48,257 nucleotides of DNA, from assembly GCA_913045895.1 (NCBI GenBank), contig CAJWSQ010000002.1, positions 1 through 48,257 on the forward strand, written 5' to 3'. Source of the stretch: an uncultured Flavobacteriales bacterium. GTDB taxonomy: Bacteria > Bacteroidota > Bacteroidia > Flavobacteriales_G > Salibacteraceae. The translations under genes were made by a program, and so were the position numbers. Below, in pieces: positions 36,897 to 39,446 of the stretch; the first letter of the stretch is position 1, and each line of letters opens with the position of its first letter. A model generated the notes under the pieces. That model was not told the origin of the DNA. It searched no databases and saw nothing but the letters and a program-made list of their open reading frames with translations.

Positions 36897-38438
36897 TTAT
36901 TTAGCGATTGATACTGATCTTAATTCGCGAATTACAGTTACACGAACCTGACCAGGATATGTCATTTCTTGCTCAATTTGGTTAGAGATTTTGGATGATA
37001 ATTCTCCAGCCATTTGATCGTTTACTTTTTCACTTTCAACCATTACACGTAGCTCTCTACCAGCTTGAATGGCATATGCTTTAGTTACACCTTCGTAACT
37101 CAATGCTAGGTTTTCAAGATCTTTCAATCGTTGAATGTAAGACTCAACAACCTCGCGTCTTGCACCAGGACGAGCACCACTAATGGCATCACAAACCTGA
37201 ACAATTGGAGAGATTAAGCTTGTCATTTCAATTTCATCGTGGTGAGCTCCAATAGCATTACAAACTTCAACGTTTTCGCCATGTTTCTCAGCCATCTTCA
37301 TACCTAAAATAGCGTGAGGCATTTCTGGCTCATCTTCAGGTACCTTACCTATATCGTGTAATAATCCTGCGCGCTTAGCCAACTTAGGATTTAAGCCTAA
37401 TTCACTTGCCATGATAGCACATAAGTTAGCCACCTCACGCGAGTGTTGCAATAAGTTTTGACCGTAAGAAGAACGATACTTCATGCGACCAACCATCTTG
37501 ATTAACTCAGGATGTAAATTGTGAATTCCTAAATCGATACAAGTACGTTTTCCTGTTTCAACGATTTCTTCTTCGATACGCTTAGTCGTTTTCTTAACCA
37601 CCTCCTCAATACGAGCTGGATGAATACGACCATCGGTTACCAATTGGTGCAACGATAAACGAGCAATCTCTCTACGAACAGGATCAAAACAAGAAAGGAT
37701 AATTGCTTCTGGCGTGTCATCAACGATAACCTCAACACCAGTAGCAGCTTCAATGGCGCGGATGTTACGTCCTTCACGACCAATGATTCTACCTTTAACA
37801 TCATCACTTTCGATGTTAAATACAGAAACTGAATTTTCAATTGCATGCTCAGTAGCTACACGTTGAATCGACTGAATCACTACTTTTTTCGCTTCGCGAT
37901 TGGCATTGATTTTCGCTTCGTCCATGATTTCTTGAATCACTTGCATTGAGCGTGAACGAGCATCATCAATTAATTCTTTTTTCAACTCATCTAAAGCGTC
38001 ATCTTTAGAAATGTTAGCCATATCTTCTAACAACTCAACACGTTTAGAGTGCAGTTTTTCTAAATCAGTTTGCTTTTTATCTACAATAGAAAGTTGTTTG
38101 GTTAAGTTAGTTCTGATGTCATTTAACTCGCGGTCTTTTTTATTGACATCAGCTAATTTATTGTTGAGCGTAGTTTCTTTTTGCTTCACGCGTTGTTCAG
38201 CCTGTTGAACTTTTTCGTTTCGTTGAGAAATTACTTTTTCGTGATTCTCTTTCAGTTGAAGGAATTTTTCTTTGGCTTGAAGAATTTTCTTCTCCTTAAT
38301 CATTTCACCTTCAGACTCGGCTTCCTTCAATATGTTTTGTGCTTTGCCTTCCATCGCTTTTTTCATCACCAGAAAAACAACTCCAGCTCCGATAAGAAGA
38401 CCTATTACAACACCTATAATTATTTCAATAGCATCCAT
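36897..38438 (-). CDS. rny: Ribonuclease Y
   Basis: This membrane-anchored endoribonuclease initiates mRNA decay. Its 513 residues comprise an N-terminal transmembrane helix (about 4-24), a long coiled coil (about 30-170), a KH domain with [20 protein letters not shown] (about 215-234), and an HD domain with [17 protein letters not shown] and [10 protein letters not shown]. The ATG at 38438 (MDAIEIIIG) is chosen. Forty extra in-frame codons upstream fall in the structured RNA region. Confidence 0.97.
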
Positions 38439-38454
38439 TTTAGTTATAGTTCGA

Positions 38455-38690
38455 ATTTTAATAAAGCCCGCACAAAACCCAGTTTGTTTGAGTAAAACCC
38501 TGATAAAGTACAGGAACTGAACCTGCCAGATTTCGCAACCTTCCAGTGTCTTTAGCAAGCTAAAAATCTCCTCAGATAAATCTGGGATGGATCAGGCCTG
38601 GTTTTGAAAACCTTAAGCTTGGTTCATAACGTAAAAGTGTTGGTTTTACCAAACGCTTTGGAATCTATGCGGGATAAGTTATCAACGCCC
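38455..38690 (-). ncRNA. ssrS: Probable 6S RNA (ssrS) or other rod-like structured RNA
   Basis: The 271-base gap between zapA and rny has three long nested helices. Positions 38467-38474 pair with 38666-38673 (CCCGCATA/TGTGCGGG, read on the minus strand). 38486-38499 pair with 38642-38654 (13 bp, one bulged T). 38526-38533 pair with 38578-38585 (perfect CCAGATTT/AAATCTGG). A small TTTAG-CTTG-CTAAA hairpin lies inside. A long bulged rod resembles 6S RNA, which inhibits the vegetative RNA polymerase, and ssrS lies beside zapA in many bacteria. The 6S assignment is from position and shape only. Ends are approximate; the strand follows the neighbours. Confidence 0.6.
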
Positions 38691-38709
38691 GCTAAGGCAT
38701 ATCTATTTC

Positions 38710-39015
38710 TTAAGAACGTTCATTTTGTCTTAAGTAGTCTGCTATCCTTTTATTAAGATGCTGGAGTCCTTCTTCGAGTTCATCAACAGCTAATGAGTTA
38801 TTGTTCGAATTCTCAATAGCTTTATTAGCAAAAAATAAGGCAGTCATGGCTAGTAAGTCTTGCTTATCACGTACTGCGTAACTGCTTTCTAGTTCGCGCA
38901 TATTTTCGTTGACCATTTTGGCCGCTTTGCGTATGATCTCTTCTTCCTCCCGCTCTATTGTAAGCGGATAAACCCGATTTCCAAGCGTAACTTTTATGTT
39001 TAGTTCATCACTCAT
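38710..39015 (-). CDS. zapA: Cell division protein ZapA
   Basis: This 101-residue FtsZ-ring stabiliser begins with a beta-strand (LNIKVTLGNRVYPLTI) and a helix EIIRKAAKMVNENMREL. The ZapA-type long helix spans about residues 45-95. It starts 7 bases after a coiled-coil ORF and ends 20 bases before the structured RNA. This resembles the zapA-ssrS neighbourhood of proteobacteria. Confidence 0.92.
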   Translation of the reverse strand: MSDELNIKVTLGNRVYPLTIEREEEEIIRKAAKMVNENMRELESSYAVRDKQDLLAMTALFFANKAIENSNNNSLAVDELEEGLQHLNKRIADYLRQNERS

Positions 39016-39022
39016 AAATCGA

Positions 39023-39313
39023 CTACTTATTTAAAAGTGCAATGCAAGAATCAACTTCTCTGATTAGTTCTCCAACTCGCTTTTTCAACTCCTCACGGTC
39101 TTCTGATTGACCTTCAACCTTACTCACAATTTTCAAAGCTTCGTTTTGCTTTTTTAAAGAGTCGTTCTCTGCTTGTAACACTTCTACTTGTTGATTGAGC
39201 TTTTTTTGCTCTTCCAACAATTGGATTGATCTCTCCTCTGCCTCTTGGTGTAAGTTGATTAACTGCTCTAAACGCTTGCCTAATGCCGCTAATGACAACT
39301 TATACTCTTCCAT
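39023..39313 (-). CDS. Small coiled-coil protein next to zapA
   Basis: This 96-residue ORF consists almost entirely of heptad-repeat helix (about 1-70: GKRLEQLINLHQEAEERSI and onward), with a short C-terminal tail ending LREVDSCIALLNK-like. No transmembrane segment or catalytic motif is present. It precedes zapA by 7 bases, so they are one operon. Its size and coiled-coil nature recall ZapB, a ZapA partner, but no sequence match is claimed. It has the best promoter in the window (39337-39367). Confidence 0.75.
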   Translation of the reverse strand: MEEYKLSLAALGKRLEQLINLHQEAEERSIQLLEEQKKLNQQVEVLQAENDSLKKQNEALKIVSKVEGQSEDREELKKRVGELIREVDSCIALLNK

Positions 39314-39336
39314 CTATCTGATCAATTCAATGGATG

Positions 39337-39367
39337 CAAAAGTAAAGACAGTTATTGAGTTCACAAA
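39337..39367 (-). promoter_or_regulatory. Promoter of the zapA operon
   Basis: On the minus strand, TTTG (39364-39367), a 19-base spacer and TACTTTTG (39337-39344), 23 bases before the coiled-coil ATG: both elements match the consensus at the preferred spacing. Confidence 0.6.
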
Positions 39368-39446
39368 TTTTTAACGCCCACTTTGTGATAACCTCGATGA
39401 ATAAATAATGAAACACATTGACGTATCGTTACTTTTGTTGACAATT

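Follow-up and report, generated by a model that had tools for sequence, protein, structure and literature searches.

A divergent, probable 6S RNA in the zapA-rny gap of a Salibacteraceae bacterium and its relatives

The window analyzed here is a stretch of 48,257 nucleotides from an uncultured Flavobacteriales bacterium (Salibacteraceae), whose genome is a draft of 371 contigs. On its minus strand it carries, in this order, a small open reading frame (39313-39023), zapA (39015-38710), a gap of 271 bases (38439-38709) and rny (38438-36897). The original prediction placed a structured RNA in this gap between zapA and rny, and the gap was borne out with both flanking genes supported by Pfam. It had also been described as free of ORFs, which does not hold, as several mechanically called ORFs overlap it: plus-strand frames of 50, 62 and 104 aa, and rny itself when extended to a TTG. 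The 96-aa ORF upstream of zapA matched no Pfam family above its cut-off; it occupies the position of proteobacterial zapB, and the likeness is one of position only. The genes are as follows.

36897-38438, minus strand: rny (RNase Y), with Pfam PF12072 (RNase_Y_N), PF00013 (KH_1) and PF01966 (HD)
38710-39015, minus strand: zapA, PF05164, E 6.1e-19
39023-39313, minus strand: small ORF of 96 aa upstream of zapA, from the ORF list

When 60 genomes were searched at the DNA level, the gap turned up in the remaining species of the genus and across several genera of its family. ZapA matches were found in 54 of the 60 genomes, and 50 of these 54 zapA loci were read (L031-L080). The rny gene adjoins zapA in 49 of the 50, L080 being without rny, and an element of about 207 nt is present in 36 of the 49 zapA-rny gaps and absent from 13. 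One gap (L048) was set aside by eye despite fitting a loose pattern, and the 3' end of one sequence (L061) was set by hand in the alignment. A covariance model, R1, was built from the 36 gap sequences with no RF01685 loci included, and it matches the window at 152.4 bits over its full length (1-207), the window sequence being among the 36 that built it. The parts of the RNA in the window are given below.

38458..38673, minus strand: conserved region of the putative 6S-type RNA, ending in the closing stem and then CUUUAUU (model R1)
38664..38673, minus strand: P1 closing stem, 5' arm (CCCGCAUAGA), from covariation and the window fold
38467..38476, minus strand: P1 closing stem, 3' arm, then the U-rich tail, from covariation and the window fold
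38642..38654, minus strand: P2, 5' arm (GUUUGGUAAAACC; consensus core GUAAACU), from covariation
38486..38499, minus strand: P2, 3' arm (GGUUUUACUCAAAC), from covariation and the window fold
38627..38641, minus strand: central bubble, 5' strand (AACACUUUUACGUUA; AACA invariant), from invariant columns
38500..38517, minus strand: central bubble, 3' strand (GUUCCUGUACUUUAUCAG), unpaired in the curated structure
38621..38626, minus strand: P3, 5' arm (UGAACC), from covariation
38518..38523, minus strand: P3, 3' arm (GGUUCA), from covariation
38600..38610, minus strand: P4, 5' arm, approximate limits, from covariation
38531..38541, minus strand: P4, 3' arm, approximate limits, from covariation
38593..38598, minus strand: conserved GGCCUG at the three-way junction, from conserved columns
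38542..38550, minus strand: conserved GACACUGGA at the three-way junction, GAC and GGA invariant in the 36 sequences
38569..38587, minus strand: apical hairpin A, 87.5% of cells paired, from the window fold with P1-P5 held
38549..38566, minus strand: apical hairpin B, 95.2% of cells paired, from the window fold with P1-P5 held

The span originally proposed for the RNA folds on the minus strand with z = -3.03, and none of 200 shuffles folded as well. For the whole gap the two strands gave nearly equal z-scores (minus -2.57, plus -2.56), so folding energy alone cannot tell which strand carries the RNA. The minimum-energy fold in the window is -64.8 kcal/mol and the fold forced to hold the consensus P1-P5 is -62.0, a difference of 2.8; over the 36 loci the cost of holding P1-P5 averaged 8.0 kcal/mol and was zero for three (L056, L061 and L063). 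Mean single-sequence pair probabilities over the 36 sequences were 0.89 for P1, 0.87 for P2, 0.25 for P3 and 0.29 for P4, which means that single-sequence thermodynamics backs P1 and P2 and does not back P3 and P4. P4 is weak in the unconstrained ensemble of the window as well (0.05).

Comparison with relatives, the check suggested along with the original prediction, was passed strongly. RNAalifold on the 36 sequences gave 33 pairs; for 25 of them, one sequence or more carries a change on both sides. The curated structure for the same loci has 45 pairs, with 93.3% of 1576 cells paired and changes on both sides in 37 of the 45. Cells changed on both sides numbered 288 compared to 87.5 in shuffles, and the covariation score was 0.535 compared to 0.228. 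When the partner column was slid by 1-3 columns pairing fell to 30-50%, a control that flatters P2 and P3 because both were added by eye on the same 36-sequence alignment used for it, though the double changes are independent of that. The alignment also contains invariant words. G-U cells (195) far outnumber A-C cells (22) in the curated structure, which places the RNA on the minus strand, that of zapA and rny. A conserved structured RNA in the zapA-rny gap is thus real.

The support for each helix is as follows. P1 (12 bp in the consensus) has 96.8% of cells paired and 10 of 12 pairs changed on both sides; P2, which is 7 bp in the consensus and 13 bp in the window fold, has 99.2% of cells paired and 6 of 7 pairs changed on both sides. 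P3 (6 bp) has 81.9% of cells paired with 5 of 6 pairs changed on both sides, and P4 (8 bp with an internal loop) 91.1% with all 8 pairs changed on both sides. Above P4 the tip consists of a 2-bp step and two short hairpins in a three-way junction, and a U-rich tail follows P1 in all 36 aligned sequences. The overall shape is a rod with a branched tip. The original prediction of a long bulged rod was thus right in that the sequence folds better than shuffles and the rod body is conserved, and wrong in that the tip is branched. Its three nested helices and inner hairpin are replaced by the supported set of P1, P2, P3, P4, the 2-bp step and the two short hairpins. It had also put the 5' end at 38690, too far out by this analysis: the conserved RNA begins at about 38673, and the outermost helix then proposed lies outside it on the 5' side.

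6S RNAs have a closing stem, a large central bubble and an apical arm, and the tip of the textbook 6S RNA is unbranched. In the RNA described here P1-P4 covary and the bubble sits between P2 and P3, an architecture of the 6S class, but the branched tip is unlike that of 6S/SsrS (RF00013). The public Rfam models did not recognize the element. In a scan of the window only a tRNA reached its cut-off, and a match to the Rfam 6S model, also suggested as a check, was not obtained even at E <= 10: in 38200-38900 no 6S-related family appeared at that level (RF00013, RF01685 and RF01693 all absent). Seven weaker Rfam matches in this interval, to snoRNA, miRNA, lncRNA and plasmid ctRNA families, were chance-like and were rejected. 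RF00013 and RF01685 had no match in the whole source genome, RF01693 had none in it either, and RF00013 had none in 198 genomes of the class.

A connection to known families was found from the other direction. RF01685 (6S-Flavo) matched seven loci in the 198 class genomes, one of them above the cut-off; of the seven, six (all except L087) are located in a zapA-rny gap and run in the same direction as the two genes. R1 matches all seven (L081-L087) with E-values from 3.7e-13 to 7.7e-8, six of them at 9.3e-10 or better and L086 at 7.7e-8. Conversely, RF01685 finds the element of one relative weakly (L049, 36.4 bits, E 0.036). RF01693 (Bacteroidales-1), which carries the Rfam annotation '6S-Bacteroidales RNA suggested', matches 16 of 295 class genomes; it coincides with RF01685 positions in two genomes (G201 and G061) and with a zapA-linked R1 match in a third (G325). 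R1 was tried on ten of the 16 RF01693 loci, matching seven at E <= 0.0044 and missing three. When 20 R1 loci without zapA were scanned with cmscan, RF01693 lay over the R1 match in six, one of them above the cut-off (L159, 90.3 bits against a cut-off of 60); the five below it had E-values of 1.6e-5 to 1.3, the last two being at chance level by themselves, and RF01693 was silent at E <= 10 in the other 14. As R1, RF01685 and RF01693 were made from different sequences, three models converge on the same loci. It should be noted that R1 also scores bare CCCGC-stem terminators (a 44-nt match in L045, E 7.8e-5, and a 34-nt match in G142), so part of its weak scores stems from P1 and the U-run. In four of the gaps without the RNA (L045, L046, L048 and L057) a short hairpin and T-rich sequence were all that was seen by eye; the one in L045, at about 1409-1452, reads CCCGCATTGC...GTGCGGG, like a 6S closing stem without a body, and is scored by R1.

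The likeness to the two families extends beyond scores. Like the window RNA, 6S-Flavo lies in the zapA-rny gap on the same strand in six of seven loci and has a closing stem with a U-run and a GUAAACUCAACA...GAGUUUAC-like core around the bubble. A boxA-like word follows zapA in most of its loci by eye, L086 excepted. However, 6S-Flavo is shorter and has a smaller tip, with R1 spanning 159-182 nt in L081-L086, and the window RNA falls below the RF01685 gathering score, with no match even at E <= 10. Bacteroidales-1 shows by eye the same order of elements, with AAACUCA before the bubble, GGGCC...GGAUUAC at the tip junction and GGAGUUU on the 3' side; its GGGCC sits at the place matching GGCCUG in the window, again by eye. 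It differs in that 13 of its 16 loci have no zapA nearby. Judged from these matches and shared elements, the RNA is homologous to both RF01685 and RF01693, and its sequence is too divergent for the public Rfam models to recognize. This supports the 6S guess, made at first from the position after zapA, and the element is very probably the 6S RNA of this lineage. None of the Rfam models tried reveals a 6S RNA in this genome, which would carry one nonetheless; this fills a gap in annotation, and a single model from the window's kin joins two families that Rfam files separately. According to passages in the papers concerned, RNA-seq of Flavobacterium psychrophilum detected four known RNAs, 6S RNA being one (PMC9723704), 6S RNA and its pRNAs were detected in Bacteroides thetaiotaomicron (PMC7366714), and 6S-Flavo is included among RNAs that carry out the function of a validated class (PMC2864571). 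We infer that the B. thetaiotaomicron 6S RNA of PMC7366714 is RF01693, because RF00013 has no match in the 198 class genomes and RF01693 matches the Bacteroides control genome.

Position tells a similar story in proteobacteria. The original prediction likened the place after zapA to that of proteobacterial ssrS, and this holds: in E. coli K-12 ssrS starts at 3055983, 41 nt past the end of zapA at 3055941 and on the same strand, a short distance as in the window. Passages in PMC7641849 describe 6S genes immediately after zapA in beta- and gammaproteobacterial zapA arrays. The surroundings differ in that the window RNA precedes rny whereas E. coli ssrS precedes fau, and the E. coli zapA-ssrS gap has no GYTCWT word by eye. 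In the literature search no Bacteroidetes zapA-6S link was found, the 6S passages met being concerned with proteobacteria (PMC7641849). The zapA-6S order known in proteobacteria would thus recur in a second phylum, making ancestry or co-regulation of the pair testable.

When R1 was run with stricter filters on 295 class genomes it gave 88 matches in 85 genomes and none in the other 210; in the 13 RNA-less loci and in L080 it found nothing of full length. Sixty of the 88 matches lie behind zapA in the same orientation: 55 of the 83 that were loaded, and L081-L085. Of the 83 loaded matches, 51 are flanked by both zapA and rny, and for 28 tblastn found neither gene within about 1.5 kb. In two genomes (G050 and G054) the zapA-rny gaps are too short (56 and 75 nt) and the R1 match is elsewhere in the genome. 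A scan of named genomes with a tip-specific pattern returned 24 records, with titles naming Bacteroidetes, Bacteroidales, Flavobacteriales, Crocinitomicaceae, Salibacteraceae or Salibacter and one Chlorobiota. One locus (L191, G179:C56; the same place as L087) has both a 6S-Flavo and an R1 match with no zapA or rny nearby, and neither TAnnTTTG nor a boxA-like word was found in the 150 nt upstream of it.

This distribution bears on whether the element could be a cis-regulatory leader of rny, riboswitch-like or an autoregulatory 5' UTR, and not a free RNA. The element stops some 20 nt short of the rny start codon, on the strand of that gene, and rny directly follows 51 of the 83 loaded R1 matches, both of which fit such a leader. 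However, all 36 aligned sequences end in a terminator-like closing stem and U-rich tail, rny is still present at the 13 gaps without the RNA, and eight of the 28 matches away from both genes have TAnnTTTG 9-15 nt before the RNA, which marks them as free-standing genes. A leader of rny is therefore highly unlikely. We give as little credence to another kind of RNA polymerase-binding RNA that would bind the core enzyme and release no pRNA. Ms1 of actinobacteria is structurally related to 6S RNA in shape and yet binds core RNA polymerase, according to passages in PMC9130861, and structure alone cannot tell holoenzyme binding from core binding. Set against this are the homology to 6S-Flavo and Bacteroidales-1 and the pRNAs published from a Bacteroides 6S RNA, reported in a passage of PMC7366714. 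A small RNA derived from the zapA 3' UTR, or a base-pairing RNA of the zapA operon, unrelated to 6S, would suit the likely co-transcription with zapA and the conserved single-stranded words in the tip, but the overall architecture, the conserved P2 and bubble, and the homology to 6S-Flavo in the same place leave it barely credible. A chance fold or a DNA inverted repeat, which the modest whole-gap z-scores, equal on both strands, might suggest, is dismissed by the compensatory changes and strand-specific G-U pairs.

The 6S reading raises the matter of how the RNA would be transcribed. Two features upstream of it are relevant.

38710..38718, minus strand: boxA-like word CGTTCTTAA, overlapping the zapA stop codon (38712-38710)
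39337..39344, minus strand: TACTTTTG, the -7 box (TAnnTTTG) of a presumed operon promoter

Of the 36 RNA-bearing loci 35 have a GYTCWT word at the zapA stop, compared to 0 of 13 RNA-less loci (Fisher p 5e-11, a value that ignores kinship). In a dinucleotide-shuffle control of the same 36 loci, 1.6 were expected and at most 5 were seen in 200 shuffles. More widely, 78 of 80 zapA-linked copies have a boxA-like word in the 150 nt that precede the RNA (7.9 expected), whereas TAnnTTTG precedes 6 of the 80 (5.5 expected), which is chance level. The 27 6S copies away from zapA look different: TAnnTTTG precedes 15 (2.8 expected), in eight of them at 9-15 nt before the RNA, and a boxA-like word precedes 10 (4.0 expected). 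For both sets of copies the expected values come from mononucleotide shuffles, and the 34-nt R1 match of G142 was left out; these counts, like all the others on promoter boxes and boxA-like words, ignore the relatedness of the loci. Among nine Bacteroidales-1 copies that are neither zapA-linked nor R1 matches, TAnnTTTG was found upstream of seven and boxA of one. In control genes TAnnTTTG preceded 14 of 15 rnpB and 15 of 16 tmRNA genes, so the scan does see promoters. This suggests that 6S genes away from zapA tend to have their own sigma-A promoter, though it is possible that variant promoters at zapA-linked copies were missed by the TAnnTTTG scan.

The conserved CGTTCTTTA word (strict form in 49 of 58 loci) was considered as a promoter and rejected, since its distance to the RNA varies from about 22 to 110 nt and it is present in rRNA leaders; for the same two reasons it is read as boxA. 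The 16S leaders of nine genomes were compared. Seven have GTTCTTTGA 68-115 nt before 16S (G002, G010, G012, G013, G017, G113 and G146), and two (G171 and G229) have GTTCAT variants. By family, GTTCTTTGA occurs in 5 of 5 leaders of f1 and 2 of 2 of f35, and the GTTCAT variants in 2 of 2 of f56; in f56 the CAT variant is common to rRNA leader and 6S only in G171, the words differing in G229. By place and word we take GTTCTTTGA to be the rRNA boxA, going by the E. coli and lambda forms. The source genome itself had no 16S match. BoxA-like words also precede 2 of 15 rnpB and 7 of 16 tmRNA genes, and together with those at non-zapA 6S genes this means that the word is exclusive neither to rRNA nor to zapA-linked 6S. 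In 6 of 16 genomes (L252, L253, L255, L257, L260 and L262) GTTCTTT lies between the TAnnTTTG box and tmRNA, 7-17 nt upstream of the latter, and a boxA-like site may precede tmRNA as well. Three loci (L068, L102 and L105) have long insertions between the boxA-like word and the RNA with both elements kept; those in L068 and L102 are repeat-like by eye.

Within 38000-39400 a sigma-70 scan gave two sites compared to 2.6 in shuffles, and terminator-like sites numbered one compared to 0.7. The minus-strand sigma-70 site was rejected as a direct promoter, as it lies inside zapA some 285 nt before the RNA and the scan is at chance level. Of the 36 loci, 24 had enough upstream sequence to be scanned for the operon -7 box. 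Outside genus g10 a TAnnTTTG box lies 612-671 nt before the zapA stop in all 14 loci examined, the window included; in g10 it is present in one of ten loci and absent from nine. Overall this is 15 of 24 loci (6.0 expected, at most 11 in 100 shuffles).

On the whole we lean towards the view that in many Bacteroidota the 6S gene is an untranslated continuation of the zapA operon, by way of a boxA/Nus site at the zapA stop, and not a free-standing unit. Transcription of the 6S RNA would start at the promoter that precedes the unit of the small ORF and zapA, and polymerase would pass from translated zapA into the untranslated RNA over the boxA-like site at the stop codon. That site may recruit NusB/S10, and this could prevent Rho termination, help the distant arms of the closing stem to meet, or both. 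The closing stem and U-rich tail would form the 3' end, and the 5' end would be made by processing. We infer that zapA-6S co-transcription is helped by Nus factors. Passages in PMC5725501 state that boxA binds NusB/S10, that the Nus complex can prevent Rho termination in reporters and promotes it at suhB, and that its main role at rRNA is said to be folding; in a passage of PMC10250234, boxA tethering is proposed to let distant leader and trailer strands pair. Going by these passages, both antitermination and folding are possible roles for the boxA-like word at the zapA stop. Among the papers listed in the literature search, no title concerned a boxA at a 6S gene. If the continuation model is true, protection from Rho, or tethering by boxA so that the closing-stem arms can meet across 200 nt, would link 6S supply both with a gene of cell division and with how much Nus factor and ribosomal protein S10 is available, and boxA, a device of rRNA, would here be used for 6S. 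The boxA-like site at the zapA stop is a concrete and mutable hypothesis for the transcription of a 6S gene with no evident promoter of its own.

6S RNA is a known brake on RNA polymerase, and the roles proposed here for the two bubble strands follow the 6S mechanism. The fold would mimic an open promoter, with the central bubble occupying the active site of the sigma-A RNA polymerase holoenzyme, and the RNA would hold the polymerase back when nutrients fall. The 5' strand of the bubble (38627..38641, running into P2) would be the template-like strand and the 3' strand (38500..38517) the mimic of the non-template strand. By eye the 3' strand also lends itself to a -7-like reading, which is not claimed here. 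On recovery the polymerase would copy the 5' strand into a short pRNA, and this synthesis would open the RNA and free the enzyme. For the RNA in the window, the promoter mimicry, polymerase hold and pRNA release are all carried over from 6S biology.

The survey of Wehner 2014 is reportedly the main one of 6S RNAs and may already list RNAs of this kind. Two genomes have two full-length R1 matches each (L110 and L192 in G086, L153 and L193 in G117). Paralogous 6S RNAs are known in Bacillus, and it is possible that these paired copies are paralogous 6S RNAs as well.
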